Origin: Zygnema cylindricum | Taxonomy: Eukaryota > Streptophyta > Zygnematophyceae > Zygnematales > Zygnemataceae | Assembly (NCBI GenBank): GCA_037447655.1 | Contig: JBBHKE010000820.1 | Span: 62,001-126,000 of the forward strand | Direction: 5' to 3' | DNA length: 64,000 nucleotides | In this document: positions 449-55,489 of the stretch, piece by piece | Numbering within the stretch: position 1 is the first letter of the stretch | How the letters are laid out: each line of letters starts with the position of its first letter | Position numbers and translations under genes: made by a program | Notes under the pieces: generated by a model | What the model was told of the DNA's origin: nothing | What the model saw: the letters and a program-made list of their open reading frames with translations, nothing else | The model's database searches: none

Positions 449-906
449 AAACAAATGCGCAGAACTCGTTTCTTATCCGTACTGTAATCCGTACTTTTAC
501 ATAACCGGATCTATGTATCCCGAAAACAGTTGCCGTTAGATGAATTATCATACGTGGTAACATTTAAATACTTAACAAATCTCACATCACGTAACTTTAG
601 TCCTAGACTTAATGGATAAGTCTAACGGCTACCGGCGGCTATATCGGACGGTAGGTACCAAGATCAAATCCAGGATTTGACATATCCCCTTTTAGTAAAT
701 AAACTACCTATCCGTAAATCAACTAATCTATTTCCCGTAAATCTCCAGATAGCATAGGCAACCATGGCTCTAGCTTCCTCTCCAACTTTCAGTAACTGCA
801 ATAAGTGTGGGAGTTGAAGAGAGGAGTTACAGGCAGATTGCCTCGGCTTCTTTTCTACATTATATTTTAGACCTAGAAAATACTAAAAGAACCATCAATT
901 TCCACA
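449..906 (-). repeat. Left LTR of M1, truncated
   Basis: This matches the right half of the minus-type LTRs (for example 11870-12312), including the tRNA-like block at 602-693, the conserved CCATGGCT block near 764 and the terminal TTTCCACA. About the first 500 bp, including the GTAC array and TATA region, are missing, and the truncation abuts the Ty3-type relic. Confidence 0.8.
602..693 (+). other. tRNA-like Pol III block in LTR of M1
   Basis: Plus strand, antisense to the element. An A-box-like TAGACTTAATGG is followed by a B-box-like AGATCAAATCC and a CCCTTTTAG terminator run. It is the same block, at the same place, as in the other LTRs of the window. Confidence 0.6.
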
Positions 907-4600: not shown

Positions 4601-5963
4601 TTTCAAATTTTTAGCACCGACAAACTTAACTTCAAATCTTGACTTGCGTTCCATGTACCTGCGTAAAAAAAACCAAGTTGTTCAATACGCGCGATTTTTT
4701 CCTTTTTTCCAGTTTCTACGTATTGTACGTGACTTTTCAAAAAATCGCAAAAAAACGTTTACTTTAAACTGAAACTGGAAATTTACGGAAAACTATAGAC
4801 ATGTTACAATAACTGTACGAATATTTACGGAAACTGTACGGAAATTGAAGAAAAAAATCGATGCACGTATCGGTACTTTCTGTTCAGCAAACTGATCAGA
4901 ATGTACAAATAAATGTACGGAAATTTATCGTAACATCTACGGACATTTCCAAAAAGAGACGCTGCGGCGTCACACTATTTGAGCGTCGTAAGTTCAAAAT
5001 GTGTACGGTCGTTTCTTTAAATTTTCGAAAAGAAGCCACCAGTTGAAAGCGAAAATTCAAGGAAGACGCAATTACCGACACCACGGCAGTAGTTAGACAA
5101 TTTTATTCTGACAAAAATAAACAATTCGCAAGAATTGAACCTGGGCCTACGTACGTGAAACTCTGAGGCCTCCATAAGTCCTCAGAGTGGACAGCTTCCA
5201 AGAAGCCTCTATGATAACTCTGACCCCTTTGTGTTTCAGCAAAAAAAACTGTCACCCTAGCAGACAAAAACTATGACCACCTGCACCCTTGTGAAGGCAA
5301 GACTCCCCTGAGTCGATAGCAAAAAGAATCTCTGAATTTGCTCCCCTGAGCAGTAAGTTATGGAGGGTCAAAGTTGACCTTTTGTACAGAAGCTCTCTGG
5401 GAGAGAGGGTCTTATCTCCTAATTTTTCTAAGTCCAATCTCTCTCTTAGACTCTATCTACTGATGTACGGAACCAATCAGATTACAATTCCATACGCAAA
5501 AGTACAGCTGCCGGTGTACTTTATGTACGGACATTGTACAACATGGCCTAAATGTCGACACATGTCATATCCGGATTCGGTGCCATAATCTCCGGAGATA
5601 CCACGATTTAGTGTAATTTCGCCAAGTGTCATCCGATGTGGCGATGGCCACAAACCACCGAAATTGTCTTCCGCAATCTCGGCGCTAATTCCAACCGTCC
5701 GATTAAATTCGAATTTAATCGTAGCCGTAATAAATACATGCGCGGTATTCGTTTCACTAAAGAAATAAATGCGCGGTATTGATTTCTTGTCCGTACCGTT
5801 ATCCTTACTTATACATTATCGGATCTATGTCTCCGTAAATAGTTTCAATTAAATGAATAATCCTACGTGTTAATGTTTAACTAAATACCAAACCTTGTAA
5901 TACGTAACACTAGTTCTAGACTTAACGACTAAAGCTACCGGCTACCTGCTGCGTGCCGGCCGC

Positions 5964-6912
5964 TGAAACTATGAGACCTCCATAAGTCCTCAGAGTAGAC
6001 AGCTTCCAAGAAGCCTCTAGGATAATCCTGACCCCTTTGTGTTCCAGCAAAAATAACTGCCACCCTGGCCAACAGAAACCCTGACCACCTGCACCCCTGT
6101 AAAGGCAAGACTCCTCTGAGTCGGTAGCAAAAAGAATCTCTGAATTTGCTCCCCTGAGCAGTAAGTTATGGAGGGTCAAAGTTGACCTTTTGTACAGAAG
6201 CTCTCTGGGAGAGAGGGTCCTATCTCCTAATTTTTCTAAGTCCTATCTCTCTCACAGACTCTATCTACTGATGTACGGAACCAATCAGAATTGAGTTTCG
6301 TACGCAAAAGTACAGCTGCCGGTGTACTTTATGTACGGACATTGTACATAATGGCCCAAATGTCAACACATGTCAAATCCGGATTCGGTGCCATAATCTC
6401 CGGAGATTCCACAATCCAACGGAATTTCGCCACGCGTCATCCGATTTGGCGATGGCCACAAACCGCCGAAATTTTCCTCCGCGATCTCGGCGCTAATCTC
6501 GGCCGTCCGATTAAATTCGGATTTAATCGTAACCGTAATAAATACATGCGGGGTATTTGTTTCACTTACGAAACAAATGCGCGGTATAATTAATTATCAA
6601 ACTATATCGTACTTAACATTAATTCTAGACCTAACGGCTAAGGCTACCGGCTATTCCTGATCTGGCGGCCGGTAGGTACAAGGATCAAATCATGCCGCCG
6701 GCACATACCTTTTAAATAAATAAATAAACCCTAATATAAAATTCCCGTAAACCTCAGGATAGCCAAGGCAGCCATGGCTCTAGCTTCCTCTCCAATTTCT
6801 CAGTGACTGCGACAAGTTTGAGAGTTGGAGAGAGAAGTTAGAGATAGACTGCCTCGACTTCTATATTTCTTTTCAGACCTAGAAAATACTAATAAAACCA
6901 TTAGTTTCTACA
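5964..6912 (-). repeat. 3' LTR of M2
   Basis: It begins TGAAACTATGAG and ends TTTCTACA on the plus strand. It lacks about 100 bp found in the partner LTR, just left of the tRNA-like block (6623-6713). The GTAC array is at about 6300-6350. The tRNA-like block here keeps the B-box-like GGATCAAATC, and a TTTT run is at 6710-6713. Confidence 0.9.
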
Positions 6913-11652: not shown

Positions 11653-12022
11653 GGCCAAAATGTCGACACATGTCAAATCCGGATTCGGTGCCATAATCTC
11701 CGGAGATTCCACAATCCAACGGAATTTCGCCACGCGTCATCCGATGTGGCGATGGCCACAAACCGCCAAAATCTTCCTCCGCGATCTCGGCGCTAATCCC
11801 GGCCGTCCGATTAAATTCGGATTTAATCGTAACCGTAATAAATACATGCGGGGTATTTGTTTCACTTACGAAACAAATGCGCGGTATTGATTTCTGTCCG
11901 TACCGTAATTCGTACATTATATATTGCTGGATCTATGTATCCCGTAATTCATTTCAGTTAAATGAATTATCGTACGTATATGTATATAAATAAATATCAA
12001 ACTATATAGTACGTAACACTAG

Positions 12023-12113
12023 TTCTAGACTTAACGGCTAAGGCTACCGGCTATTCCTGATTTTGCGGCCGGTAGGTACAAGGATCAAATCCTGCCGCCG
12101 GCACATACCTTTT
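12023..12113 (+). other. tRNA-like Pol III block in 5' LTR of M2
   Basis: Antisense to the element. A-box-like TAGACTTAACGG, B-box-like AGGATCAAATCC, then TACCTTTTAA as terminator run. The block copy in the 3' LTR (6623-6713) and the interrupted copy in the host solo LTR (from about 5914, resuming at 12318-12358) align with it. Confidence 0.6.
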
Positions 12114-12569
12114 AAATAAATAAATAAACCCTAATATAAAATCCCCGTAAACCTCAGGATAGCCAAGGTAGCCATGGCTCTAGTTTCCTCTCCAATTTCT
12201 CAATGACTGCGACAAGTTTGAGAGTTGGAGAGAGAAGTTAGAGATAGACTGCCTCGACTTCTATATTTCTTTTCAGACCTAGAAAATACTAATAAAACCA
12301 TTAGTTTCTACAGCCGCTAGGTACCACGATCAAATCTTGTGTTTGGCACCTACCTTTTAGTAAATAAACCCCTAATTAATACAAATTTCGCGTAAAACCT
12401 CTGGATAGCCTAGGTAGCCATGGCTTTAGCTCCCTCTCCAATTTCTCAGTGACTGTGACAAGTTTGAGAGTTGGACAGAGAAGTTAGAGGTAGACTGCCT
12501 CGGCTTCTTTCTATATTTCTATTTAGACCTAGAAAATACTTAAAATGAACCATTAATTTCTACAGTACG

Positions 12570-14204
12570 CCCCTAAAACCCGCTAAGAGGATTGGCCGTA
12601 ACCAATTGATGTGAATGTTCCGATGAATACATGGGGTGTGATAATTATTTGAATATATATTGTTTTTTAGGGCTCATTTGACGGAAAGCGTACAAACTGT
12701 GGTACATGTTCAATTCAATTTTTTTAACATGTACGGATTTGTATGGAAAAAAATTCATTAACGTTTTTTACGATTTTTTCAAATCAACCTCTCCAGTTTC
12801 TACGTATTGTACGCGCGTTCGAATCGTGCGTAAATTATGTTTTGAACAACTATGGTACGAAGTAATCATACGACAAAACTTTTATACATTTTGCAGACGC
12901 CAGTCTATACGCCATCTCATTTTATAAGGTTTTTGTTTTCAAACATAATGAAAGTCCTTTGAGAGAAATGGTGTGACGAACAAAAGTTACCGAAAATAGC
13001 GTGACGAGGGAATGTTACGAAATTTCAATTTATTTGCGGTTGTATTTTGGAAACCGCGTGCCATGTGAAAGTCTTAAGATTTTTCGCTGGTTTTCCATCA
13101 TGACACGTTGGTTAATCGTCCAGCGTGTCACGATTTTTTTTTTCAACCCACCTCCTTGAGGTGGGTTGACAGTTACAAAAAAAAATGAAGCGAACTCCTC
13201 GCAGATGAACATCCGACGGCCAGTATTACCTCCAAAATCTTCGGAGAGTATCGGCAAGATTCTCTGTAATGTATTTTTTCGTATAAAATCAAAATAGGCG
13301 GTACGATTTGGTACGGACGTTAGCGGATTTCTGTAAACTACGCCACTTGTCACATGATGGAACTTCACCCTTATTCATAATTTGGTAACTTGAAATTGTG
13401 TGAGCCGTATACATTGCTAATTATGTGCGCACATGTCGGAGCTCCGTTTAGAGACCGTCGTTCGTATTGTAAGGATCTTATTGTTTTTCAATCGAAATCG
13501 TTAAATCAACAAACAGATAATTGTGCACCGAGAAAAGTTGGAGAGACGCTCAAGTAAACGTTACCGAATTGTTTTTAATTATCAGCTTTGTCCTCCTCTG
13601 TCAGCGTAACAAGTTACGGTTCACTTAGGTGGCTACTCGTGTGACATTATTACTACACCGTGTATCGCTATTAGTGTTTTTTTTTTTTTGCTGTTTAAAA
13701 CATTTTTTCTCCGTACACAATTGTCCGGTTTTCAATTCGAAACCGCCATTAAGAAGCTGAGACTTTTACCTCTCAATAGCAACGATCAGATCCACAATCC
13801 GACGTGTGTGTACAGAGAAAAGATGTTTTAAATGGCAAAAACAACATTAACCCTAATAGCGATTCACGGTGTACTGTAGAAAGAACTGTACCATGACGAA
13901 AATCTATGCCATGTGTTCGTCTACCTGGTTGCTACCACCCGGCATAACGTCACAGGGCATGGCGAGACGCACGGTCACGCGCATAGTGTGACGTTACACC
14001 GTGTCTTATTAGTGATAATCATTTTCTTGCTTAAAACAGAATTTCTCCGTCCACACTTGTCCTATTTTAACATGGAGACCGCCAATCGAAAGGTGGGAAT
14101 CTTGGCTGTCAATCGCGACCATTGGTTCTATAATCCGACAAGTGTGTACGGAGAAAATATATTTTTAAGTTGAAAAAAAAACACTAACACTAAAATGCGA
14201 AAAC
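12570..14204. repeat. MITE-like repeats, no gene recognised
   Basis: About 13650-13878 is a small element with long inverted ends: it begins CACCGTGTATCGCTATTAG and ends CTAATAGCGATTCACGGTG, with inner matching TTTAAAACATTTTTTCTC and GAGAAAAGATGTTTTAAA. A related, more diverged copy covers about 13990-14200 and a partial one about 16220-16390. A 12-bp stem with a 3-nt loop (TCAACCCACCTC and its complement) is at 13143-13169. The remainder is AT-rich. Reading frames here are short and match nothing I know. Confidence 0.55.
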
Positions 14205-18685: not shown

Positions 18686-18790
18686 GCAAAAGGTAGGCAA
18701 TCATATCGGATTTGATCCTAAGTCCTACAGGGTGACCACCATATAGAAGTAGTCGTATGTCGTATCGGTTACGTCTTTGATTAAGCGTTA
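18686..18790 (-). other. tRNA-like block in old solo LTR
   Basis: Antisense to this plus-oriented LTR. The minus strand contains GGATCAAATCC (18708-18718), identical to the B-box-like motif of the minus-type LTRs, and a CCTTTTGC run near 18687. The A-box side is weak. Its presence in such a diverged LTR argues for conservation. Confidence 0.4.
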
Positions 18791-19095
18791 CACACGTAGG
18801 GTACGATTCATATTTAAAGATGTACTCATAAACACATTCCATTTAGCAGACTACGGTTCGAAAGTACATAGAACCAATCGAGACGCACGATATAAACAAA
18901 GATGCACGAAACAAATGAAAAAAACATTTACGTGAACCTACGTAATGAAATGGCGGTCTGGGATCGGACGGCTCACATCAGAGCGGAGATACCGGAATGA
19001 ACATTCAGCGGTTTATGGAGGAGAGATCATTGGATGACACGTGGCAAGATGTTAGTGGATAGCGGATACGATGGGAAGAAGAACCATGACTTTGG

Positions 19096-20112
19096 TGTTG
19101 AAATTCATAGATTTCTATAGTATTTTCTAGGTTTAAATATGTTAGGAAAAAGAAAAAGGACAGACAGCCTGCCTCCACCTCCTTTCTCTAGCCCCCATTC
19201 TTGTTGTAGTCACTGAAGGATAGAGAAGGTGGTTGATCCATGGCTGCCTTAGTTCAACAGGCAGTTATTTTTAGTTTACTAAAAATAGTCCTGACGGACC
19301 CGGGATTTGAACCCGGAACCTGCGGTTCGTCAAGTTGACCTATAGCGGTCAGCTTTATCTTACTAGACTAGGACCGATACTAAGTGCTATAGAGTATAAT
19401 AGATATATATATACATTTAGGAAGTAAGAAATCCATTTAACTAAAACTAGATACGGCGTGCATAGATAGAGTTTTAGTACGACACCATTTCAGAATGAAT
19501 ACCTCGCATTTGTTTGACAGCGAAATAAATATCTCGCATGTAATTATAACGGTTAAGATTACGTCTCATTACGAATCCGACGGCGCACGTCATCGCCAAA
19601 ATCCCGGAGTGGTCACCTTGGCGTTTTGTGACATGGCATGACCTGGAGCCACGTGGAGAGATGACATTCGGTCATAGGAATTCCGAGGAATGTATGGACA
19701 AGTAAAATGCCTACACGCGTCCACTTAATAGCCTTGTCGTACATAGGCCGTACAAAAGGTACACCGGAAGCAGTACTTTTTGGTACGGTACAGTAATTTG
19801 ATTGGTTCGTACTTCAGTGGATAGAAGTTATTTGAAGGAATCAGGACTTAGAAAATTTTGGTAGGTAGTCACCTCTCCCTTTGAGAGTTTGTACAAATTG
19901 GCATTTTTAGTGCCTCATAACATATCGGCTGGTTGGCCGTTTTCAGTGATTCTTTTTGTTACGGACTCAAGGGAGTCCAGGCTCCACAAGGGTGCAGTCA
20001 AATTGTCAGTTTGCCTTCTTGGGCAACAGTGGTCGTGGCTTAAAGTGGGTTAGTTAAATACTATCTAGAGGCTTCCTGTATTCTGTAGTCGAATGGAGGA
20101 CACAGAATTGCA
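19096..20112 (+). repeat. 5' LTR of element A
   Basis: TGTTGAAATTCATAG to GAATTGCA. Landmarks in order: TATTTTCTAGG, CAGCCTGCCTCCACC, CCATGGCTGCCTTAG at 19238, antisense tRNA-like block 19281-19376, GTAC array at about 19738-19812, a weak TATA-like TTGTACAAATTGGC near 19890, GATTCTTTTTG near 19950, and the gag ATG at 20093-20095. Confidence 0.93.
19281..19376 (-). other. tRNA-like Pol III block, 5' LTR of A
   Basis: Best example. The minus strand shows an A-box match TAGTCTAGTAAG (19359-19370), an anticodon-arm-like stem TGACC/GGTCA, and a variable-arm-like hairpin GAACC-GCA-GGTTC. A T arm CCGGG-TTCAAAT-CCCGG contains a perfect B box GGTTCAAATCC (19303-19313). TTTTT follows at 19281-19285. 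The 5' and 3' ends do not form a normal acceptor stem, so it is tRNA-like rather than a tRNA gene. The 3' LTR has the same block at 24824-24920. Confidence 0.7.
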
Positions 20113-20998
20113 GGTTATAAGCCCACCCTCTAGGGTGCCCACCTTCAATGGATCTGGGTTCATCTATTGGGAAGCCATGATGATGGGAGCTTTGTGTGAA
20201 AAACGATACTGGGGTATCGTCAGTGGACAAGTGAAAGGTCCACCTTCGGGAACTCCACCAGGATTTGGGGGAGTAAGGTTTTCTGCAACAACGGCTTCCT
20301 CAGCGGAGGAGGCAGATGATGGGGACAACAGTGTGTCCGAAAAGGAGAAAGGGAAGGAGACACCCCTCACTCCTATTGCCACAGTATCGGGAGCGGCGAC
20401 CGTGAAGACCGTGGAGAACGATACTCAAATGTGGGAGGATGTAAACATGGCTGCCAAGAACTTCATTCTGTGGCACCTCACTCAAGGTTTGGCCACTCCT
20501 CATCTTCACATTTACAAGGCCGAGGAGTTGTGGGAGAGTTTGGTGGAGATCTATAGAGCTGGAACTATTCAGGAGCTCCAGTTGGCTGAGCAAAAACTAT
20601 TGAGTTACACTTACAATGGAGGAAAGATGTTAGATTACTGTAATGATCTTTCTTGTTTGTATATGGAAATGGAAAGTGTCGGGTGTACAGGTACAATGAA
20701 AATGAAAGTTAACACCCTTATCATGAAATTACCAAATGAGTTCGAAAACATAGTGTACCGAGTACAGGGAATGCACACAGTAGTCAGGATGATACTTGTG
20801 CAGGAAAACATAATGGAGATTAGGAGAGGAGGAAAGAGCATTCAAGCTCTAGCAGCAGGAGGGGACCGATGGGGGAAGGACCCGAAGAAACCTTATAGAG
20901 GGGAAAGAGATCATTATGGGGGACAGAGGCCCCCAAAGGGTCTTTGTCATTATTGAAAAAAGCCGGGACACTTTATTGCAGATTGTGTGAAGCTATCA
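20093..20998 (+). pseudogene. Element A gag
   Basis: gag begins at the ATG inside the LTR (20093) as MEDTELQ, reads through the LTR edge and PBS, and continues with SPPSRVPTFNGSG. Mid-gag motifs conserved with M1 and M2 include LWHLTQGLATPHLH, IYRAGTIQELQLAEQ and VNTLIMKLPNEFENIVYR. Part of the GSWTW-like segment before VVRMILVQEN is missing. The zinc knuckle is broken by TGA at 20954-20956, where relatives have the second Cys (CHY-stop-KKPGHFIADC). This stop is also what separates gag from the in-frame protease. Confidence 0.85.
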
Positions 20999-24638: not shown

Positions 24639-25653
24639 TGTTGAAATTCATAGATTTCTATAGTATTTTCTAGGTTGAAATATGTTAGGAAAAAGAAAAA
24701 AGACAGACAGCCTGCCTCCACCTCCTTTCTCTAGCCCACATACTTGTTGTAGTCACTGAAGGATAGAGAAGGTGGTTGATCCATGGCTGCCTTAGTTCAA
24801 CATGCAGTTATTTTTAGTTTACTAAAAATAGTCTTGACGGACCCGGGATTTGAACCCGGAACCTACGGTTCGTCAAGTTGACCCATAACGGTCAGCTTTA
24901 TCCTACTAGACTAGGACCGATGCTAAGTGCTATAGAGTATGATAGATATATATACATTTAGGAAGTAAGAAATCCATTTAACTAAAACTAGATACGGCGT
25001 GCATAGATAGAGTTTTAGTACGACATCATTTCAGAATGAATACCTCGCATTTGGTTGACAGCGAAACAAATATCTCGCAAGTAATTATAACGGTTAAGAT
25101 TACGTCTCATTACGAATCCGACGGCACACGTCATCGCGGAAATCCCGGAGTGGTCACCTTGGCGTTTTGTGACGTGGCATGACCTGGAGCCACGTGGAGA
25201 GATGACATTCGGTCATAGGAATTACGAGGAATGTACCGACAAGTAAAAAGCGTACACGCGTCCACTTAATAACCTTGTCGTACATAGGCCGAACAAAAGG
25301 TACACCGGTAGTAGTACTTTTTGGTACGGTACAGTAATTTGATTGGTCCGTACTTCAGTAGATAGAAGTTATTAGAAGGAATTAGGACTTAGAAAATTTT
25401 GGTAGGTAGTCACCTCTCCCTTTGAGAGTTTGTACAAATTGGCATTTTTAGTGCCTCATAACTTATTGGCTGGTTGGCCATTTTTAGTGATTCTTTTTGT
25501 TACGGACTTAGGGGTGTCCAGGATGCACAGGGGTGCACTCAAATTGTTAGTTTGCCTTCTTGGGTAGCAGTGGTCGTGGCTTAAAGTGGGTTAGTTAAAT
25601 ACTATCTAGAGGCTTCCTAAATTCTGTAGTCCAATGGAGGACACGGAATTGCA
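24639..25653 (+). repeat. 3' LTR of element A
   Basis: Starts right after the PPT and ends in GAATTGCA, then TTTGG. It carries the same landmarks as the 5' LTR, including the antisense tRNA-like block (24824-24920) and an outward-facing ATG at 25634-25636, 20 bp from the end. Confidence 0.93.
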
Positions 25654-26472: not shown

Positions 26473-26675
26473 TGTTGAAATCACCAGATTTACGGGAGGT
26501 ATTTTCTAGGTCTTAATTAAAATAAATAAAAAGGAAAGCACAGGCAGCCTGCCTCCACCTTCTCTCTCTAGCCTCCATACTTGTTGCAGTCACTGAAGGA
26601 GAGAGAGGGCAGTGGAGCCATGGCTGCCTTAGCTCAATAGGCACGGCTTAAGAGTGATCTAAGTCACTCTCAACC

Positions 26676-26769
26676 AAAAAGGTTGACTCCGGCATGACTC
26701 GAACCTCCGACCGGTAGGGCGAGGCATAGCCGTCAACCCTTACCAGTCTATCGTAGTAGTCCGTTAGGA
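26676..26769 (-). other. tRNA-like Pol III block in LTR of B1
   Basis: Minus strand, antisense to the element. B-box-like GAGGTTCGAGTCATGCC and a TTTTT run (26676-26680). GGTTGAC and GTCAACC (26732-26738 and 26681-26687) form a 7-bp acceptor-like stem around the T-arm region. The sequence differs strongly from element A, but the position and layout are the same. B2 has it at 36063-36155. Confidence 0.6.
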
Positions 26770-27447
26770 TACATGGGGTTTGATAACTATTTAAACAAAT
26801 AAATAGGCGACTAATCCGATTAACGCAATTACAAATAGAATAAATAGAAACTAGTTGGAGTTTTAGTGCGCACGAAACAAATGTACCGGACATTTGTTTT
26901 TGAACAACTAACATTTAGAGCCGGTTTTTATCCGACGGCCCGCACCATCACCGAGATCCCGGAATGGCCGCCTTGGTGTTTTTCGGTCTTGACATGACCT
27001 GACGACACGTGGCACGATGTCATTGAGAAGAGGAAATCCCACAGATCATAAAGACAAGTCTGAAAGAGCTGGCGTCCACTCCATGGCCTTGTCGTACACA
27101 TGCCGTATAGAAAGTACATCGGCTATAGTACTATTCTCTACTATACAGTCATCTGAGTGGCTCCGTACCTCAATAGATAGGAGTTGTGAGAGGGTTTAGG
27201 ACTTAGTGAATTGAAGAGGTAGCCGCCTCTCTCCCAATAAGCTTGTATAAATATTGGCATCTTTCCCACTGCATAATTAATCGCCAAGTTGAGCGTTTTC
27301 AGTGATTCTTCTTGCAGTGGACTCAAGGGAGTCCACACTGCACAAAGGTGTAGTTAGATTATCTATTTGTCTGCTTGGGTGGCAGTTGCTCTAGTTGAAA
27401 GTGGGATAGTTGAAAACTACTTAGAGGCTTCCTCAATTTTGGTCCAA

Positions 27448-28434
27448 ATGGGGGACACAGAATTGTAGGTTATGGGCCCACCCTCTAGGGTGCCCATATT
27501 TAATGGATCTGGGTTCATTTACTGTAACGCTATGATGACAGGGGCAGTATGTGAGAAACGATAATGGGGTATTGTTAGTGGAAAAGTAAAACGTCCATCT
27601 CAAGGAACTCCACCAGGGTTTGGAGGAGTGAGGTTTTCTGCAGCAAGATCTGCTCCAACGGAGGAGACAGATGATGGGGACAGCTTTGTGTCTGAAAAGG
27701 GGAAAGGAAAGGAGACACCTCTCACTCCTATTGCCACGACACTCGGAGCGGTGGCCGTGAAGACCGAGGAAAACGACATTCAGATGTGGGAGTACACCAA
27801 CATGAATGCCAGGCACTTCATTCTGTGGCACCTCACTCAAGCTTTGGCGACCTCTCACCTTCACATCTTCAAGGCCGAGGAGTTGTGGATGACCTTAGTG
27901 GATATCTATAGAGCTGGCACCATTCATGAGCTCCAGCTGGTTGAGCAAAGGCTGACGAGTTACATTTTCAAAGGAGGAAAGATGTTAGACTATTGCAGCG
28001 ATCTCTCTTGTCTGTACATGGAGATGGAAAAGTACATGGAGATGGAAAGTGTCGGATAGACAGGCACTATGAAGATGAAAGTTAACACTCTCATCATGAA
28101 GTTGCCGGAGGAGTATGAAAATATAGTGTACCGAGTGCAAGAAATGGATGATAGTGCTTGGAAGTGGAACACCGTGGTCCGAATGATACTTGTGTAGGAG
28201 AATACCGTTGAGATCTGGAGAGGAGGAAAGAGTGTTCAAGCTCTAGCTGCCGAAACGGACCGGTGTAGGAAGGATCCGAAGAAGCCGTACAACAACTTCA
28301 AAGGGGAAAAGAACCAATCTGGAGAACCGAGGACTCCAAAGGGCCTTTGCCATTTTTGCAAAAAGTCGGGCACTTCATAGCTGATTTCATCAAGCTATTG
28401 GAGCTGAGGCTTCAAGAAAATTGTGGAGGGGGTT
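27448..28434 (+). pseudogene. B1 gag, decayed
   Basis: The LTR-borne ATG (27448-27450) is followed after five codons by TAG, caused by the CA-to-TA change at the LTR end. The in-frame ATG inside the PBS (27472-27474) remains, giving GPPSRVPIFNGSG. Further stops occur near 27560, at 28058-28060 and near 28196. A short tandem duplication gives MEMEKYMEMES (about 28014-28048). The zinc knuckle begins CHFCKKSG and is frameshifted just after. Confidence 0.8.
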
Positions 28435-31604: not shown

Positions 31605-31614
31605 NNNNNNNNNN
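31605..31614. other. Assembly gap (10 N) between opposed elements
   Basis: Left of it is plus-strand RNase H of B1; right of it is the gag start of a minus-strand element. The end of B1 and most of the minus-strand element are missing here. Confidence 0.95.
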
Positions 31615-32754
31615 CACTATCCCCCAAAACCTTTTTTCGCATAGAGCTCCTATCATCATACTTTCCCAGTATATGAAGCCAGTTCCATTAAAGATTGGTA
31701 CCCTAGAGGGTGGGCCCATAACCTGAAACTCTGAGACCTCCATAAGTCCTCAGAGTGGACAGCTTCCAAGAAGCCTCTAGGATAATCTGACCCCTTTGTG
31801 TTTCAGCGAAAACAACTGCCTCCCTGGCAAACAAAAACTCTGACCAAGACTCCCTTGAGTCTATAGCAAAAAGAATCTCTGAATTTGCTCCCTTGAGCAG
31901 TAAGTTATGGAGGGTCAAAGTTGACCTTTTGTATAGAAGCTCTCTAGGAGAGAGGGTCCTATCTCCTAATTTTTCTAAGTCCTTTCTCTCTCACAGACTC
32001 TATCTACTGATGTACGAAACCAATCAGAATACAGTTCCGTACGCAAAAGTACACCTGCCGGTGTACTTTATGTACGGACATTGTACGACATGGCCTAAAT
32101 GTCGACACATGTCATATCCGGATTCGGTGCCATAATCTCCGGAGATTCCACGATCCAATGTAATTTTTCCACGTGTCATTCGATGTGGCGATGGCCACAA
32201 ACCGCCGAAATCTTCTTCCGCGATCTCGGCGCTAATTCCGACCGTCCGATTAAATCCGGATTTAATCGTAGCCGTAATAAATACATGCGCGGCATTCGTT
32301 TCACTTAAGAAATAAATGGGCGGTATTGATTTCCCGTCCGTACCGTAATCCGTACTTTACACATTACCGGATCTATGTATCTCGTAATAAATTACAGTTA
32401 AATGATTTATCCTACGTATACTTGTTTAAATAAATATCAAAATATATACTACGTAATACTACTCCTAGACTTAACGGCTAAGGCTACCGGCTATCTGATG
32501 TCTGCCGGCCGGTACGGACAGGGATCAAATCCTGTGGCCGGCACATACCTTTTAGATAAAATAAACCCTTTAACTAATATAAATTTCCCGTAAACCTCTG
32601 GATAGCCTAGGTAGCCATGGCTTTAGCTCCCTCTCCAATTTCTTAGTGACTGCGACAAGTTTGAGAGTTGGAGAAAGAAGTTAGAGGTAGACTGCCTCGG
32701 CTTCTTTCTATATTAGACCTAGAAAATACTATAAATGGACCATTAATTTCTACA
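31615..32754 (-). mobile_element. Copia element M3, 5' end only
   Basis: The minus strand carries the first part of gag (31615-31743, including GPPSRVPIFNGTG), a perfect PBS at 31709-31723, and a whole LTR at 31724-32754 (1031 bp, TGAAACTCTGAG to TTTCTACA). It inserted into the protease region of B2: the next base begins GGCTCGGTAGATCTG, which is continuous with B2 coding sequence. The other half is lost in the gap. tRNA-like block at 32463-32553, with GGGATCAAATCC and TTTT. Confidence 0.85.
32463..32553 (+). other. tRNA-like Pol III block in LTR of M3
   Basis: CTAGACTTAACGG, GGGATCAAATCC, then CATACCTTTTAG. Antisense to M3. Confidence 0.6.
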
Positions 32755-35857: not shown

Positions 35858-36853
35858 TGTTGAAATTCTTAGATTTAGGGGAGGTATTTTCTAGGTCTTA
35901 ATTAAATTAAAAAAGAAAAAGAAAACACAAGCAGCCTGCCTCCACCTTCTCTCTCTAGCCCCCGTACTTGTTGAAGTCATTGAAGGTGGGAGACGGCAGT
36001 GGAGCCATGGCTGCCTTAGCTCCATAGGCAGGGCTTAAGAGTGACCTAAGTCACTCTCAACCAAAAAGGTTGAGTCCGGCAGGACTCGAACCTCCGACCG
36101 GTAGGGCGAGGCGTAGTCATCAACCTTTACTAGTCTCTCGTAGTAGTCCGTTAGGATACATAGGGTTTGATAGCTATTTAAATAATAGATAGGCGACTAA
36201 TCCGATTAAAGAAATTACAAATAGAATACATAGAAACTAGTTGGAGTTTTAGTGCGCACGAAACAAATGTACCGCACATTTGTTTTTGAACGGCTGTCAT
36301 TTAAAGCCGGTTTGATCCGACGGCCCGCGCCATCGCCAAGACCGTGGAATGGCAGCCTTGGCAGTTTTCGGTCGTGACATAACCTGGTGACACGTGGCAC
36401 GACATCATTGAGAAGAGGAAATCTTGGAGAACATGAGGACAAGTCCGAAAGAGACAGTCGTCCACTCCATGGCCTTGTCGTACACAGTCTGTATAGAAAG
36501 CACATCTGCCGTAGTACCTTTTTGTACTGTACAATCTTCTGATTGGTTCCGTACCTCAGTAGATAGGAGTTGTGAGAGGGTTTAGGACTTAGTGGATTGA
36601 GGAGGTAGCCGCCTCTCTCCCATTAAGCTTTTATAAATATTGGCATCTTTGCCACTCTATAACTAATCGCTTGGTTGGGTGTTTTCAGTGATTCTTCTTG
36701 CTGTGGACTCAGGGGAGTCCAGACTGCACAGGGGTGAAGTCAGATTATCTATTTGTCTGCTTGGGTGGCAGTTGCTCTAGTTGAAAGTGGGTTAGTTGAA
36801 AACTACCCAGAGGCTTCCTCAATTTTGGTCCAAATGGGGGACACATAATTGCA
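35858..36853 (+). repeat. 3' LTR of B2
   Basis: Same subfamily as 26473-27467. It contains CCATGGCTGCCTTAG, the antisense tRNA-like block (36063-36155), GTAC-like array near 36478-36530, the TATA-like TTATAAATATTGGC near 36630, and the LTR-end start-codon region (ATGGGGGACAC). Confidence 0.88.
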
Positions 36854-37870: not shown

Positions 37871-39180
37871 TGAAACTCTGAGACCTCCATTGGCCCTCAT
37901 AGTATGCAGATCCAAAAGAAGCTAATCTAGATAGTGCCGACTCCAAGTTGATATAAACCCAAATGAATGACCCCTTTACATTCAAAACCCCAATATAGAT
38001 TCACCCCTGTGAAATAACACTTTCTGTGTGCTCAGTTCCACCACAGAATGCAAAGTTAGAATATGAGATCTGGACACATTCACCCACTTTGACTTTCCCT
38101 TAGAAATACAGCCACCCTGGCAGAAAAAACCTCTAACCGACTACACCCCTGTGTAGCGTGGACTCCCTTGAGTCTGCAGCAAAAAGAATCACTGAAAATG
38201 GTCAAGTAAATTGATAGTTATGGCTGGCCAAAGTTTGCCATATATACAAGGTGCTCTGTGGGAGAGTCAGCTATCTACCCGAAATATTCTAAGTCCTAAA
38301 CCCCTCTCTAAACCCTCTAGTACTGAGGTACGGACCAATCACATTACTGTATAGTACATAAAGGTACAGATGTCAGTGTACCTTTTCTACGGTCATCGTA
38401 CGACATGGCTTAAAAATCAACAAATGTCCTAACCGGATTCGCTCTTATAATCTCCGGAAATCCTGCCTCCAAATCTTATCTCTCCACGTGGCGCCAGGTC
38501 ATGCCGCATCATAAAAATGGTACCGTACAACAAAGTACAAGTGCCGGAGTACTTTCTGTACGTACGTTGTACGATGTCGCCATAGTGCGACATTTGTCAC
38601 TCCCGGATTTGTTTTCTGCCGTTTTGGAAATTCCGTAATCCCGTACGACGTTGCCACGTGTCATCCGGAGTGGCGGCGTCTCCAAACTGCCAAATTTTCC
38701 TTTCCGCGTTGTCGGCGCTAACCACGGCCGTCCGATTTACATCGTAATTAAAACTGACCGTCGAAATAAATGTCCGTACTATTTATTTCGTCCGGTACTA
38801 AAAATACAACTGTTTCTATGCCCTATATTCCGTAACCCAGTTAAATGGAAAATCCTACCTATAATTATTTAAATATTTATCAAACCCTATACGTACTAGC
38901 ACTAGTCCTAGGCTAAAGGGACAAAGCTAACGGCTACGGGGATGTTTGACGGACGGCAGGTACCAGGATCAATTCCTGGGTCCGTCAAATACCTTTTTGG
39001 TAAACATACCTATTATCTATTCCTGTCTCTTTGGAGAGCTTAGGCAGCCATGGCTCTAGCTCCCTCTCCAGCCTTCAGTGACTACAACAAGTGTGGGGGC
39101 TTGGAGAAGGGATGCAGAGGCAGACTGCCTCTACTCTTTTTCCATCTAGTAAAGACCTAGAAAATACCCAAATATCAACA
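37871..39180 (-). mobile_element. Solo LTR (1310 bp) with TSD tacaa
   Basis: TGAAACTCTGAG to AATATCAACA, flanked by TACAA (37866-37870 and 39181-39185). Minus orientation. It is about 100-200 bp longer than its relatives, largely because the GTAC module is present twice (about 38350-38407 and 38521-38577). The tRNA-like block is at 38906-38998. Confidence 0.93.
38906..38998 (+). other. tRNA-like Pol III block with long stem
   Basis: A-box-like TAGGCTAAAGGG region, then a perfect 10-bp stem TTTGACGGAC (38945-38954) and GTCCGTCAAA (38980-38989). It encloses a perfect T arm CCAGG-ATCAATT-CCTGG (38963-38979). TTTTT follows at 38994-38998. The stem plus T arm resembles the acceptor/T minihelix of tRNA. 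Confidence 0.65.
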
Positions 39181-41245: not shown

Positions 41246-42316
41246 GTGTGTTTTTTCTCCCTCATCTAATATTTTCATTTTATTTTTATGTCTTTTTGAC
41301 TTTGATGGAGGTTTATCTATTTCTCTTGAACCATGTTTTTGTGTTTCATTTTTTTATCTATATCTCTTTACCTTGTCCTCGCATACCTCCTCCCCCCTTC
41401 TCCTACTACAAAATATGGTTTTTTCTTTTCTTTAACACTCTGATTTCTCTTATCTAAAATAATGACTTATATTAGGGTAACATTCCATTAGGCGGTCCTA
41501 GTAAATGTACGGACAAGTCTACTGACAGCCTTTACTGGAAGTCCGTTCCATTATGTCGGGCCAGTAACAAACATTCCTCAATTATGATTGGCGCCACATA
41601 GGTTACAGTCCAGATTCTAAAAATCTTAAAATAATCTACAAACAGGATATGTGTACGAAATATCTGTACGACCGGAGGTAGTTAATGACTTGTGCATAAA
41701 GTTTTCGGCCAGATTTTGAGTTTGAAAATAGAAATCAAAATTTGGAAACGGAATGGCAAAAAGACGAGGCAAACTTTGAAGGTCGCGGCAAAACCTTGAA
41801 TGTCAGTGGATGTCAAACAGAGCGTGCGAGGATATTTTCAACCTGACATCCATCCAGCGTGGCAGACGCCACATAGCTTGTACGACGTGCTCGCGTGTGA
41901 TCCCTAGATATGTATTTTTTTTATTTACGTGTACCAATGGCAATCATCTCGTGGGCCCCAACTCTCCTCGCGAGGAGAGTTGGGGCCCACGAGATGATGT
42001 GCCCGATTGCTTCGCGGATCTAAAATAGTGAAACATCTAACTGTCAGGAATCACTCCTACATCACTGGAGCTTCCCGACAGCTTTCCAGTAGCGATGTTT
42101 TGTCTTACAAAAAAAAAAATCATGGTACGGATATGTACGGTGTTGTACGAGTACATACGGCGTCCAGTAGCAAACCTCACTTTTCCTCTAATGGAAACAT
42201 ACCCTTATAAGCTTTATTTGGTACACGTAGCTTACTTTCCCTCTAATGCATATAAAAGCAAGCATTACAAAATGTTATTTTTTTTTCTTTTTTTTGTCTA
42301 ATATATATCGTTTTAG
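41246..42316 (+). other. Transposase intron carrying a MITE-like insert
   Basis: Donor G/GTGTGT at 41246, acceptor TTTTAG/G at 42316; joining them restores the PGVCYRTG motif of the family. From about 41474 to at least 42000 the intron contains the same block as at 4451, plus a perfect palindrome at 41943-41998. Confidence 0.65.
41943..41998. repeat. Perfect 56-bp palindrome, no spacer
   Basis: Arms of 28 bp meet at CTCCTCG/CGAGGAG with no loop; the outer ends are ATCATCTC and GAGATGAT. No mismatch by eye. Confidence 0.9.
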
Positions 42317-44469: not shown

Positions 44470-45683
44470 TGAAACTCTGAGACTTCCATTGACCCTCAGA
44501 GTATGCAGATACAAAAGAAGCTAATCTAGATAGTGCCGACTCCAAGTTGATATAAACCCAAATGACTGACCCCTTGACAGTCAAAACCCCAATATAGATT
44601 CACCCCTGTGAAATAACACTTTCTGTGTGCTCAGTTACACCACAGAATGCAAAGTTAGAATATGAGATTTAGACACATTCACCCACTTTGACTTTCCCTT
44701 AGAAATACAGCCACCCTAGCAGACAAAAACTCTGACCGACTACACCCCTGTGTAGCCTAGACTCACCTGAGTCCGCAGCAAAAAGAATCACTGAAAATGG
44801 TCAAGTAAATTGATAGTTATGGCTGGCCAAAGTTTGCCATTTATACAGGGTGCTCTCTGGGAGAGGCAGCTGCCTACCCAAAATTTTCTAAGTCCTAAAC
44901 CCTCTCTAAAACTCTATCTACTGAAGTACGGCACCAATCAAATTACTTTGTCGTACAGAAAAGTACAGGTGCCGGTGTACTTTCTGTACGGCCATTGTAC
45001 GACATGGCCAAAATGTCGACACGTATCAAATCAGGATTAGTTCCTGTAATCTCCGGAATTCTCGTAGTCCAATGTTATCACGCCACGTGTCACCTGACTT
45101 GACAAAGACCGTAAAACGCCAAAAGTACCTTTTCCGTGATCGCAGCGCTTATCGTAGCCGTCCGATCAAAACCGGCTATAATCCTAGTCGCTGAAATTCG
45201 ACGCGCGGTATTTGTTTCGCTATCGAAACAAATGCGCGATATTTGTTTCGCTGTCGAAACAAATGCGCGGTATCCGTTCTGCCCCCCATTCCGTACTTCG
45301 TACTAAATTAAACTGTTTCTATGTACTAAGTATCTATTTAGCCGTTAAACGGATTAATCTACATTTAACGATTTATATATTTGTCAAACCCTATATATCG
45401 TAATATCTGTTCTAGACATAACGGCTAGAGCTAACGGCTAGTGCGGATTGACGGCCGGTAGGTACCAGGATCAATTCCTAGGTCCGTCAACTAACTTTTG
45501 GTAAGTCTACCTAATTTACCCCCTGTCTTCTCTAGAGAGCCTAGGCAGCCATGGCTCTAGGTCCCTATCCAGCCTTCAGTGACTACAACAAGTATGGGAG
45601 CTTGGAAAAAGGGAGTTAGAGGCAGACCGCCTCAGCTCTTTTTCTATCCTAATACAGACCTATAAAATACTCAAATATCAACA
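44470..45683 (-). repeat. 3' LTR of M5
   Basis: TGAAACTCTGAG to TATCAACA. It contains the GTAC array near 44953-45000, two copies of a TTTGTTTCGCT-type phrase near 45209-45269, and a tRNA-like block at 45411-45499. Confidence 0.93.
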
Positions 45684-45696
45684 CTCCCCTTATTTT

Positions 45697-47571
45697 CTAG
45701 TCTATTTTCAACTTCCACAAACAAGTAAACAAACACCCCCTCCCCTTTTTCTTTTTCTTTTTCCTTTTTCCTTTTCCTTTCATAAAACTTAAGTATTTAA
45801 CACAGTGTATTAAATGAACTGAAATGATAATTGTATCACACATTTTATTTAACATCCCATTTTTCTTAAATCCGAGCAAAGATTTTATCCACCTCTTCCC
45901 TTTTCCATCCACACTAAATTCACTTTCCCTCTTGAAATAACCAGCCCCATCCCCAACCTTCAACACATACCCGGATGATAACCCTATTACAGGCACATCT
46001 TCACAAGAGACATCACACCAAGTAGTGATGTCAAATCCGTCCACCTCCAAATATTCCCAAAAACCACTAGTCCCCACTAAGTTCCTCATAAGATCTACAT
46101 CTTCCGTAATCATATTTTTATCCATGATAATTACCCCATTTTCTGAACTTCCCTCACTGTCTCTCATGGAATTCTTTCCACTATCACTTTCTATTTTAAT
46201 TCCCAATAAATATTTCTCTTCTCCCCTATCCTTTAAAACCCCCTCTAGAATTAATTCTCCCCTTTCCTCGGAATCCGTTGAAGTCTCCCTTTCCGACCAG
46301 TTTTCTGTTTCCAAAATATCTATGAAACTATCCTCAATATTTTGAACTTCTTCAAGTATCTCCTCTCTCTTTACTTCCCTTATACCTCCAAAAGCACACT
46401 GTTGCCTTCGTCCAATTTCTGTGTACTTTTCTATCTTCCCCATTCTACCGATGTGAAGAAGCTCCAATTTTTCTTCATCCTCTTTCTCCTCTTCCTCTTC
46501 GTCCTCCTCATCCACATTCCAACTTCTAAGTTTTTCCAAACAAGGGCATTCCTCCATATAATGACCTAGTTCCCTACAAAAGAAGCAAACCCCTTTTTTC
46601 AAAGCTCCCGTGTCTTTTCCTCTCCCTCTTTTTCCACCAAAGTTCCTATAAGGTTTACCTTTGTCTTTCTTCCTCTCATCACGCTTCCGCTCGTCACCAC
46701 CGTTCCTCTCATCACGTTTCCGCTCGTCACCACCGTTCCTCTCATCACGCTTCCGCCAATCACCACCAGCTGAAAATGCATTGACCCTGTCCTTTCCCCT
46801 ACGAAGCTCCAAAGTGCTTTCCCTTACAAGAATTATCCCCATGGTAAAGCTCCAAGTCCATGAGGAGCCATCCATTGCCTGCATACGATAAATAATGCTT
46901 TCGTACTCACTTGGGAGTTTCATAAGTAGTGTATTAATCTTACCCTCCTCAGATTCTACATATCCCGCACTAGCTAGCTCAACATATAACGCAGCAATAT
47001 CATTGCAAAACTCTATCATGCTACCGCCTTTATAAACATAGGCATCTATTTCCTGTTTTACTAATTGCTGCCTCTGAATAGTCTCACTCTTATAAATCTG
47101 AATTAGTACTTCCCATATCTCTGAAGACTTGGTTAGACTTAAAAGAGTGATAGCTATCGACTTAGACACATATCTAAGTATGAGATGTTTTGCTATAGTG
47201 TTTTTGTATTCCCATATTTTTCTGTCAGTTTTAATCCCTACATGTGGTACCATAGCTGAGAGCCTAGCTCCCCTCACGATAGGTGTCCCTTTTTCCTTCT
47301 CCCCTACTTCCCCATCCACGGAAAGATTCTTCCCTTCACCTTCCGTTGCATCTGAGCTCCGGATGATATTCTGGGCAGCCTCAGATGAATCTCCTTAGTA
47401 AGCTCCTCCAAAGCCAGGTGGCGGACATCTCACTTGTCCCGAAACAATTCCCCATAAGTGCTTCTCGAAAAGCAATCCCGCCATTGTAAACTCCCAATAA
47501 GTGAAGTTTGTTCCATCGAACATAGGCACCCTAGATGGTGGGCCCATAACCTGAAACTTTGAGACTTCCAT
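45697..47571 (-). pseudogene. M5 gag with RNase H remnant (one stop)
   Basis: A single frame of 625 codons runs from the LTR-borne ATG (47569-47571) to 45697. It has one TAA (47395-47397, codon 59), after which 540 codons are open from 47319 (MDGEVGEKEKG). Order: MEVSKFQVMGPPSRVP; gag body (KHLILRYVSKSI, IQIYKSETIQRQQLVKQ, NTLLMKLPSEYESIIYRMQ); a basic region with an 11-residue unit KRDERNGGDER repeated nearly three times (33-bp repeat, about 46676-46760); zinc knuckle CFFCRELGHYMEEC; and an acidic stretch. Then come short remnants recognisable as RT (YLLGIKIESD) and RNase H (TTWCDVSCED, SSGYVLKVGDG). The C-terminus is Lys-rich. Such a long open frame through a degraded pol suggests selection or youth. 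Confidence 0.82.
47537..47551 (-). other. PBS of M5 (half-tRNA type)
   Basis: Minus strand GGTTATGGGCCCACC, and the next base A also matches plant initiator tRNA-Met (16 bp in all). It contains an in-frame ATG for gag, codon 9. Confidence 0.85.
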
Positions 47572-47920
47572 TTGCCCTCAGAGTATGCATATCCAAAAGA
47601 AGCTAATCTAGATAGTGCCGACACCAAGTTGATATAAACCCAAATGACTGACCCCTTGACAGTCAAAACCCCAATATAGATTCACCCCTGTGAAATAACC
47701 CTTTCTGTGTGCTCAGTTCCACCACAGAATGCAAAGTTAGAATATGAGATTTGGACACATTCACCCACTTTGACTTTCCCTTAGAAATACAGCCACCCTG
47801 GCAGACAAAAACTCTGACCGACTACACCCCTGTGTAGCCTAGACTCACCTGAGTCCGCAGCAAAAAGAATCACTGAAAATGGTCAAGTAAATTGATAGTT
47901 ATGGCTGGCCAAAGTTTGCC

Positions 47921-47927
47921 ATTTATA
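47921..47927 (-). promoter_or_regulatory. TATA box of M5 LTR promoter
   Basis: Minus strand CTGTATAAATGGC. It lies about 350 bp from the LTR 3' end and about 80 bp downstream of the GTAC array. The B subfamily has TATAAATATTGGC at the same relative place. Transcription should start about 30 bp further on. Confidence 0.6.
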
Positions 47928-48007
47928 CAGGGTGCTCTCTGGGAGAGGCAGCTGCCTACCCAAAATTTTCTAAGTCCTAAACCCTCTCTAAAACTCTATC
48001 TACTGAA

Positions 48008-48082
48008 GTACGGCACCAATCAAATTACTTTGTCGTACAGAAAAGTACAGGTGCCGGTGTACTTTCTGTACGGCCATTGTAC
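48008..48082 (-). promoter_or_regulatory. GTAC array in M5 5' LTR
   Basis: GTAC cores at 48008, 48035, 48045, 48059, 48068 and 48079. Spacings in the dense part are 10, 14, 9 and 11 bp, roughly one helical turn. Several have the CCGTAC or CGTAC context favoured by SBP-domain proteins. Confidence 0.55.
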
Positions 48083-48492
48083 GACATGGCCAAAATGTCG
48101 ACACGTATCAAATCAGGATTAGTTCCTGTAATCTCCGGAATTCTCGTAGTCCAATGTTATCACGCCACGTGTCACCTGACATGACAAAGACCGTAAAACG
48201 CCAAAAGTACCTTTTCCGTGATCGCAGCGCTTATCGTAGCCGTCCGATCAAAACCGGCTATAATCCTAGTCGCTGAAATTCGACGCGCGGTATTTGTTTC
48301 GCTATCGAAACAAATGCGCGGTATTTGTTTCGCTGTCGAAACAAATGCGCGGTATCCGTTCTGCCCCCCATTCCGTACTTCGTACTAAATTAAACTGTTT
48401 CTATGTACTAAGTATCTATTTAGCCGTTAAACGGATTAATCTACATTTAACGATTTATATATTTGTCAAACCCTATATATCGTAATATCTGT

Positions 48493-48581
48493 TCTAGACA
48501 TAACGGCTAGAGCTAACGGCTAGTGCGGATTGACGGCCGGTAGGTACCAGGATCAATTCCTAGGTCCGTCAACTAACTTTT
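48493..48581 (+). other. tRNA-like Pol III block in M5 5' LTR
   Basis: A-box-like TAGACATAACGG, then TTGACGG and CCGTCAA as a stem around CCAGGATCAATTCCTAGG, then AACTTTTGG. Antisense to the element; near-identical copy at 45411-45499 in the other LTR. Confidence 0.62.
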
Positions 48582-48770
48582 GGTAAGTCTACCTAATTTA
48601 CCCCCTGTCTTCTCTAGAGAGCCTAGGCAGCCATGGCTCTAGGTCCCTATCCAGCCTTCAGTGACTACAACAAGTATGGGAGCTTGGAAAAAGGGAGTTA
48701 GAGGCAGACCGCCTCAGCTCTTCTTCTATCCTAATACAGACCTATAAAATACTCAAATATCAACATCCAA

Positions 48771-49048: not shown

Positions 49049-50140
49049 GAGATGGACAATTCGTAGAGGGAGAGGTTAAGGGATAAAGAGGAAGAGAAAA
49101 TGAAAGGGGGAGAACAAGGAGGTAGAGAGCGCAAGAGAGATGAATAAACATGCTGAGCTGCGCACTTACCAATGATTTCTTAATTATCCCGGAAATATAC
49201 AGCGACGATATTTGCGCGACCTTTATTGTTGTTCCTCCATATTACGGTCTATCTAACTGCCGCTGCAAACCATAAAAATAGGCATAGATTACTGGATGCT
49301 GCTAGACTAAGCGAGGCGGTGGGGCGATGAATGGATATACGAGATTCAAAAGTCTGCCATCAGAAAATGAGGATGTGGTTGAGACTTGTCTGACCACAAA
49401 ATCCCTTTTTTGTGTTATGTCCGCATATGCCGTTGGTTTGTTACCAATTCTCGTTTTCAAGGCGCCGCGTTTTTTCAATTCTAAATTTTGTAACTTCACT
49501 CTAATATGTACACAATATGACACTAATTTGTTGTTGTTTTGTGAAACATAACCCATTTTAGAATAAAACTTAACTCTAATATGCGTCTCGTTTGTTTAAA
49601 GGTCTGGTATTACCGTTATGTACCCTAAAAAACCCTTTAATAGTGTAAACATATATACTATTAATCTCGCAAGATCTGAAATAGAGTTAAAAGGGCACCG
49701 TATTAGACTTAGCTTTCCTCAATATCAACATGTGTAAGTGTGCAACACTACGTTTATGTAACATGGACAATTTTTAGCATGTGCACATGTTATCAGTTCA
49801 CACTGACACACACAAAAACGAACGTCTGAATGTATGCTAACGCCTATTTTGGAAACTGGATTCCGCTAATTTTCTAAGCGCAGCTCTGTATGCGACCGAC
49901 ATAAGTTAACCAGAATTTCCGTACGGATGTCGGTAACGAAGTACACTGTTGTATGAACAAACAACTTTCGTACACCACACTATTAATGAATACAGTACGG
50001 TCATACCATTTACGATATTTTTCTAGAACCGTAATTAATGTCAAATATAAATTAGCTTCAATCACTGTATTTCAAGTATCAATGTCAAAATTTTGGGGTG
50101 CCGATATGGCGTACGTAAGGCTAATAACATTTCACGGTGT
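49049..50140. repeat. 1.1-kb direct repeat, copy 1
   Basis: Nearly the same sequence recurs at 54314-55441, right after the third assembly gap. Copy 2 has about 40 bp more near 54585-54625. The frames shared by both copies are short, with no known domain. Confidence 0.8.
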
Positions 50141-50283
50141 AGCTTTAACAAATATGATGTACGCATTTCCTGAATAGTGTGATATACGGAAGGTGTTTGT
50201 TCGTACATAAATGAACTTCGTTACGTAAAATCGTACGAAAAATGTAGTTAACTTATGTCGCTTGCATACAGAACTGCGCTTAG
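49874..50283. repeat. 410-bp foldback element
   Basis: The ends CTAAGCGCAGCTCTGTATGC and its inverted counterpart GCATACAGAACTGCGCTTAG start arms of about 115 bp, including ACATAAGTTAAC and GTTAACTTATGT. The left arm recurs at 55178 in the second copy, where the right arm is replaced. Confidence 0.7.
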
Positions 50284-55441: not shown

Positions 55442-55489
55442 GTACAGTACATCGCCAATCGTTATTAGCATTGTGTACGCTTATTCCGT

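Follow-up and report, generated by a model that had tools for sequence, protein, structure and literature searches.

In Pol III genes, TFIIIC binds the A and B boxes, TFIIIB and Pol III then assemble, and a run of T residues ends the RNA. The background on TFIIIC and the two boxes is covered in the excerpts of PMC5911963 on which we draw. The described system closest to the one reported here is Helenus, which carries a tRNA-like sequence with conserved A and B boxes inside its LTRs, mostly without a functional tRNA (Kojima 2024, PMC10886601). According to the same excerpted source, Helenus elements are non-autonomous TRIMs, in a set limited to lengths under 1000 bp, and Pol III is the presumed source of their transcripts; there is one plant member, in Selaginella. 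The plant and fungal members display 5-bp TSDs, most fungal members have primer sites matching the anticodon loop, and the tRNA-like part and the primer-binding site (PBS) lack complementarity. Helenus and Ajax are again described as non-autonomous in the consulted part of a 2026 meeting report (PMC12859917). Cassandra, the TRIM named as a parallel in the original prediction, is rightly cited as such, in that a Pol III promoter and terminator are kept inside the LTRs of a plant retroelement (PMC7215508, PMC10886601, both in part); Helenus, which was not named there, is the closer one. Genomic RNA made from an LTR Pol III promoter has been proposed for Helenus and shown for Cassandra (PMC10886601, PMC7215508), and the cited passages of PMC10886601 argue that the autonomous partners of Helenus need a Pol II promoter and are unlikely to have a long stretch of LTR in common with it.

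The window analysed here, a 64-kb stretch within a 128.5-kb contig of the 352.8-Mb assembly of the alga Zygnema cylindricum, departs from both systems. Much of its positions 1-49 kb is filled by a nest of Ty1/copia elements with LTRs of 0.95-1.3 kb, and we consider it fairly likely, judging from sequence, that each LTR holds in its U3 region an antisense, putative type-2 Pol III/TFIIIC unit, serving for a cis effect and/or as a source of antisense RNA. As in Helenus, A and B boxes lie inside the LTR, the A box here being weak. Whereas the Helenus elements treated in the excerpts of PMC10886601 are short and non-autonomous, the units here reside in LTRs of about 1 kb belonging to elements with gag/pol domains, and they are antisense, a word absent from the text of that paper. 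The elements thus fall outside Helenus on two counts: they are not gene-less elements below 1000 bp (the complete LTRs alone measure 949-1312 bp, and the elements E1 and EA are coding), and their promoter is not placed to make the element's own RNA, being antisense in 12 of 12 whole units. Cassandra differs in that its promoter is of the 5S type, sits in a small gene-less element and starts that element's own RNA, whereas the promoter here is tRNA-type, antisense and carried by coding elements (PMC7215508, PMC10886601, in part). Nor is there 5S-derived LTR sequence, since the window has no gathering-level match to any Rfam family and no 5S match up to E 10. Among the matches listed in the open-access literature, no report of an antisense tRNA-type unit in the LTRs of coding copia elements was found.

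Assignment of the elements to Ty1/copia rests on copia-type Retrotran_gag_2, rve (integrase) and RVT_2 domains, together with LTRs, a 5-bp TSD, a PBS and a PPT; E2 is the exception for the TSD, no matching one having been found. E1 (LTRs 19096-20112 and 24639-25653; TSD TTTGG) and EA (LTRs 12313->11264 and 6912->5964; TSD GCGGC) encode gag and/or integrase and RT domains, their long frames being interrupted by stops. The LTR pair of EC (TSD TTGGA) is 98.9% alike, SD is a solo LTR (TSD TTGTA), and copia fragments are present in the nest beside E1, EA, EC, SD and E2. EC (44470-48768) has a short interior in which a 565-aa gag frame is the sole frame of at least 250 aa; this gag had no relative at E <= 0.001 among 8000 candidates, and EC is probably a young non-autonomous derivative. 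A search of viral_contigs with one RT query and one PBS pattern found no relatives elsewhere.

Primer sites were found behind six 5' LTRs (at 20113, 27468, 2174, 11263, 31723 and 47551). That of E1 (20113..20127, + strand) adjoins the 5' LTR directly and reads GGTTATAAGCCCA, a variant of GGTTATAAGCCCACC; four of the six sites read GGTTATGGGCCCA and one GGTTATTGGCCCA. We take GGTTATGGGCCCA to be complementary to plant initiator tRNA-Met in its anticodon region, and all six sites resemble sequence complementary to the anticodon region of a tRNA and not to its 3' end. Anticodon-loop priming has been described for Drosophila copia and Ty5 (PMC10886601, in part). The idea that the antisense RNA itself primes reverse transcription was rejected, no stretch longer than 6 nt in the 16 aligned units (see below) matching the complement of the PBS region.

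Several other features of the window were recorded. Ten N at 31605-31614, between the E2 interior and the LTR ER, are as expected at a scaffold join, so that the order of the pieces around 31.6-32.8 kb is uncertain. A perfect 54-bp palindrome at 41944-41997 (27-bp arms, loop absent), spotted through sub-cut-off likeness to Rfam miRNA hairpins, could be a foldback element or an assembly artefact. Outside the copia nest lies a second repeat set, 82-94% alike, in direct and inverted copies (49049-50141 / 54314-55444; 51307-51651 / 55785-55446), and a gene with a PDDEXK_6 (DUF506) domain occupies 61971-62957; the protein search gave 27 relatives of it, those with an organism name coming from Taxus, Cryptomeria and Diphasiastrum, which puts the host in or near the land plants and probably outside the flowering plants.

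Every whole unit in the window is contained in an LTR, always at the same place. On the + strand, the EB 3' LTR, itself on the - strand, contains a unit at 556..695 (A-like 606-615, B-like 661-671 AGATCAAATCC, T4 at 690); EA carries one at 6577..6715 in its 3' LTR (A 6628-6637 GACCTAACGG, B 6682-6692, T4 at 6710) and another at 11976..12113 in its 5' LTR (A 12028-12037, B 12082-12092 GGATCAAATCC, T4 17 nt behind B). Further + strand units are found in ER (LTR 32755->31724) at 32417..32555 (A 32468-32477, B 32522-32532 GGATCAAATCC, T4 at 32550), in SD at 38861..39000 (A-like 38911-38920, B 38966-38976 GGATCAATTCC, T5 at 38994), and in the 3' and 5' LTRs of EC at 45363..45501 (A 45415-45424 GACATAACGG, B 45468-45478, T4 at 45496) and 48445..48583 (A 48497-48506, B 48550-48560, T4 at 48578). 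The - strand units belong to H_E1, an old LTR cut elsewhere by E1 (18686..18823; A-like 18775-18766, B 18718-18708 GGATCAAATCC, T4 at 18691), to the 5' LTR of E1 (19279..19418, the main block of the original prediction; B 19313-19303 GGTTCAAATCC, T5 at 19285) and its 3' LTR (24822..24961; A-like TAGTCTAGTAGG, B 24856-24846, T5), and to the 5' LTR of E2 (26474-27467; unit 26674..26810, B 26705-26695 GGTTCGAGTCA, T5 at 26680) and its 3' LTR (35858-36853; unit 36061..36187, B 36092-36082 GGTTCGAGTCC, T5 at 36067). The orientation is antisense in all 12 window LTRs with a whole unit, and in the 11 LTRs with a start that could be placed, the B box begins 214-245 bp from it; both the antisense orientation and the distance of roughly 200-300 bp had been predicted. 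By eye, E2-type LTRs (26640-26680; L012:2066-2110) show a GAGTG....CACTC hairpin just behind the T run, with apparent compensatory changes, and EC and SD have GGTA....TACC at that place.

The layout is enriched in the window. The pattern GGWTCRANTCC with at most one mismatch and T4 13-19 nt behind has 13 matches, whereas 100 dinucleotide shuffles gave 0.53 on average and never more than 2; 12 of the 13 fall in blocks listed in the original prediction and the remaining one lies at 5141(-). Because this pattern allowed for letters seen in these very units, the test was repeated with a plant SINE consensus taken from an excerpt of PMC2774510 (A box RRYNNRRYGG with at most one mismatch, B box GGTTCGANNCC with at most two, and T4), which gave 13 matches, 10 of them in listed blocks, against a shuffled mean of 2.01 and maximum of 6; for E1 and E2 the A match differs from the A box of the 16-lineage alignment. 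Taken LTR by LTR, 11 of 15 LTR sequences had an antisense A+B+T score that no more than 5 of 200 shuffles matched or exceeded, so that the proposed scoring against shuffled LTRs came out well for the majority. It failed for EA_3 (13/200), for SE (17/200, with the best site outside the block) and for H_EA (105/200, the sense strand scoring higher); EB_5 is a fragment without the unit region. The type-2 Pol III layout of A box, B box and T4+ terminator in register is present, with the A box weak when taken alone. Of the 13 blocks predicted to share it, 12 have a B box with T4/T5 behind; the block at 15024, in the LTR SE, was missed both by the B-box pattern and by the model described next.

When the 352.8-Mb assembly was searched with the E1 and ER units, the first look yielded 1446 and 3255 candidates, respectively, figures that are not copy numbers (40 were scored for each); going by these matches, the assembly holds large families of such LTRs. 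As the loci L001-L060 were retrieved with the E1 and ER units as queries, only eight lineages, found beside those units by anchors outside the unit, are independent of the choice of block (L003, L006, L012, L020, L024, L029, L047 and L056). Sampling of the window and the 60 loci with the anchors CCATGGCTGCCT and GTAGTCACTGA, mismatches allowed, yielded 86 blocks, or 82 once duplicated window copies are discounted; they form 20 clusters, from which SE is absent. Sixteen of these clusters are usable lineages, L042 and L044 (no LTR-like unit, by eye), L027 (a truncated tandem copy of E1) and the H_EA half having been left out. In all 16 divergent lineages, a motif resembling the B box (0-2 mismatches to GGWTCRANTCC) is present and T4/T5 follows it at 14-18 nt, the distance expected of the tail of a tRNA gene. 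The prediction that every LTR subfamily carries the unit accordingly holds for 16 of 17 lineages and fails for SE. A sequence-only model built from eight lineages outside the window recovered 12 of the 13 listed window blocks, with E between 4.2e-28 and 2.1e-9. It also matched the two halves of the H_EA unit (E 6.8e-11 and 0.00045) and, at 12592-12657, a partial unit (E 0.00078); two further window matches with E near 5 were taken as chance. Over 72 loci the same model gave 76 matches at E <= 0.01, with none of the 12 focal host tRNA genes among them. A weak match (L061:2961-3073, 20.7 bits) lies about 1.4 kb from a tRNA-Phe gene.

Layout, orientation, position and the better keeping of promoter letters are direct observations. 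In the 16-lineage alignment, the B-box window ranks second among 99 windows of 11 columns, the first being the same window shifted by one base. The column sets (for the T loop and D arm, positions that are invariant or nearly invariant in tRNAs) and the tRNA numbering were chosen with the alignment in view, so the following p values serve as guides only: T-loop columns corresponding to tRNA invariants score 0.84 compared with 0.56 for other columns (p 0.002; 1/106 slid placements as high), D-arm invariant columns 0.79 (p 0.013; 2/94), upstream TATA-like columns 0.86 (p 0.0001; 1/108) and the columns matching C32/U33 0.94 (p 0.02). Narrower column sets used first gave higher values than the fuller sets quoted (T-loop 0.92, D-arm 0.83). 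The 12-column A box as a whole, at 0.60, is not above the rest (p 0.31; 30/96 slid placements as high), and the B boxes of several lineages have A for T54 or another mismatch. That key promoter letters were kept while others drifted suggests that the unit is in use, and the predicted persistence of the layout despite drift between the boxes is supported across lineages, in copia elements encoding gag/pol domains.

A rather improbable alternative is that a tRNA gene or SINE was inserted once in the ancestral LTR and has been inherited, unused, by all lineages. Decay of the tRNA-like stems in many lineages down to a weak covariation trace, the existence of an LTR (SE) without the layout and an A box that as a whole is no better conserved than the background are what such a relic would leave; decay, however, has been uneven, sparing the tRNA-promoter invariants (0.79-0.84 against an average of 0.56), and the spacing from B box to T run has been held within 5 nt. 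We regard as very unlikely the further alternative that the conserved letters are ordinary Pol II factor sites resembling a B box by chance. Conserved LTR stretches do exist outside the unit: in the whole-LTR comparison the unit block reaches 0.30-0.60 and several other stretches 0.70-0.76, so that the block is no island. Furthermore, CTAACGGCTA is kept in many lineages though unneeded for a Pol III promoter. The GCTAACGGCTA motif between the boxes (A1 columns 76-85, e.g. within 48445-48583) is likewise kept in many lineages and resembles a plant MYB/MSA element, which would make it a candidate for such a site; yet its AACGG core is absent at that place from E1, HE1 and L003, among others, and the conserved columns coincide with tRNA invariants and are followed by a terminator.

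Conservation does not extend to a fold of the putative transcript. RNAalifold predicted no common pairs for the 16-lineage alignment. In the D, T and outer stems, 63.7% of cells are paired, compared with 59.2% in shuffles (0/500 as high) and 27.5-41.9% in slid placements, and their covariation score is 0.188 against 0.140 (0/500 shuffles as high). Since the named stems exceed shuffles by so little, we claim only a weak stem trace: the proposed covariation check brought out this trace, and a conserved RNA structure was rejected. A T-arm hairpin had been predicted for each block, which proved incorrect, the 5-bp T stem being complete in 5 of 16 lineages (E1, SD, L020, L024 and L047), with two of its columns being alignment gaps in four more.

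Scoring of the blocks as tRNAs, also proposed, gave a divided answer. At the unit's place, ARAGORN with default settings called a tRNA in 3 of 30 E1-type loci, a count that rose to 12 at -ps95 and to 24 at -ps90. The 30 ER-type loci had no call there, and -ps90 gave six calls elsewhere within the 60 loci. In the window, the unit of the E1 5' LTR forms an ARAGORN cloverleaf at -ps95 with a partly paired acceptor stem, and that of the 3' LTR is called tRNA-??? at 24835-24921. Rfam gave no gathering-level match in the window and, over the whole window up to E 10, no tRNA match; when three short stretches were searched, a T-arm piece matched RF00005 at 14.4 bits. This value, the best for the three stretches, lies below the cut-off of 29, and 63 scored host tRNA matches have 45-73.9 bits, so the unit does not qualify as a functional tRNA gene. 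For the source tRNA, neither ARAGORN at lowered thresholds nor Rfam pointed consistently to one isotype; the calls at the 12 host tRNA loci examined were Lys, Phe and one 'Pyl' only. In the excerpted account of the Culex element cqgypsy_1 (PMC3286476), tRNA-like sequence also lies inside an LTR element of a coding superfamily, but as tandem tRNA copies with CCA ends at the 5' LTR/PBS boundary of one gypsy element, and not as a conserved antisense unit in U3. Foamy viruses are reported to have small RNAs attributed to Pol III (bovine and simian) that in a simian case are encoded in the LTR; these are animal retroviruses with miRNA hairpins, whereas no common hairpin is predicted for the unit here.

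With no common structure from RNAalifold and no tRNA gene from Rfam, it is the promoter rather than the fold that looks conserved, and that no common fold is predicted agrees with selection on the promoter. It would agree as well with a site for TFIIIC only, which Pol III transcribes little or not at all and in which the B box has been retained for the sense Pol II promoter, whether as an insulator, as an enhancer or to keep chromatin open; so would the B box being the strongest part and the A box being weak as a whole. We hold this to be unlikely: TFIIIC binding alone needs neither the T4/T5 run that every one of the 16 lineages has 14-18 nt beyond the B box nor the conserved upstream TATA-like stretch.

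We return to the antisense Pol III/TFIIIC unit as the preferred reading. The order of its parts (first a TATA-like stretch, then the A box, then the B box and, 14-18 nt further on, a terminator of T4-T5) and the distances between them fit Pol III biology. An ancestor of these copia families probably captured the head of a tRNA gene or SINE. TFIIIC and TFIIIB would bind the unit, and Pol III would make an antisense RNA of about 100 nt, complementary to the U3 of the 3' LTR in the genomic RNA. A sense-direction TATA-like motif near LTR position 790-800 (e.g. TGTATAAATGGC in EC; by eye) would put the Pol II start about 500 bp downstream of the unit, which is why we place the unit in U3. As it points away from gag, the unit cannot make genomic RNA; therefore, it would be used as a cis element and/or as a source of lineage-specific antisense RNA. 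In the former role, from a place some 500 bp upstream of where Pol II presumably starts, it might keep U3 open or bound chromatin.

Some units have themselves received insertions. EA (TSD GCGGC) sits inside the unit of an older LTR, H_EA, splitting it into an A-box half (5865..5959, +) and a B-box half on the other side of EA (12303..12360, +). The H_EA LTR (TSD CGTAC) in turn interrupts a further unit-like sequence on the - strand, which has no match in the LTR library and whose TATA/A-box half lies at 12592..12657 while its B box and T run continue at 5141 (-). In both cases the TSD is 9 nt from the B box (by eye). At L038, a junction cuts a unit in its B box; the presumed other end of that element lies in an E1-type LTR and has no matching TSD. 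Altogether, ten landing sites in LTRs or units could be placed, three of them inside units and the other seven at LTR positions of about 517, 574, 592, 654, 780, 794 and 845; nine further insertions are in internal regions. With the unit making up about 10% of the LTR, three or more of ten landings in units have a chance of about 0.07 (calculated by hand), which is not significant, and a role of the unit as an integration target is only hinted at. Ty1 and Ty3 are likewise LTR elements that meet Pol III promoters, as the few insertions inside units do here; according to the excerpts of PMC5911963, their targets are Pol III genes of the host, which they enter at the start or upstream of it, whereas the unit here belongs to the element. 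It is a distinctly long shot that an antisense Pol III gene carried in U3 would at once hold the LTR open and offer a landing site for new copies, such that the family would insert into itself between the A and B boxes, having made a safe haven from a captured tRNA promoter.

The Pol III promoters known from LTRs occur in tiny elements that they are thought to transcribe. If the interpretation favoured here is true, an antisense unit kept in many gag/pol-coding lineages would imply a use of Pol III or TFIIIC other than making the genome, which would go against the argument, in the cited part of PMC10886601, that autonomous partners should not share such sequences. It would also follow that tRNA-like matches in such genomes can be parts of LTRs, and LTR nesting would become linked, in a testable way, with Pol III promoters.
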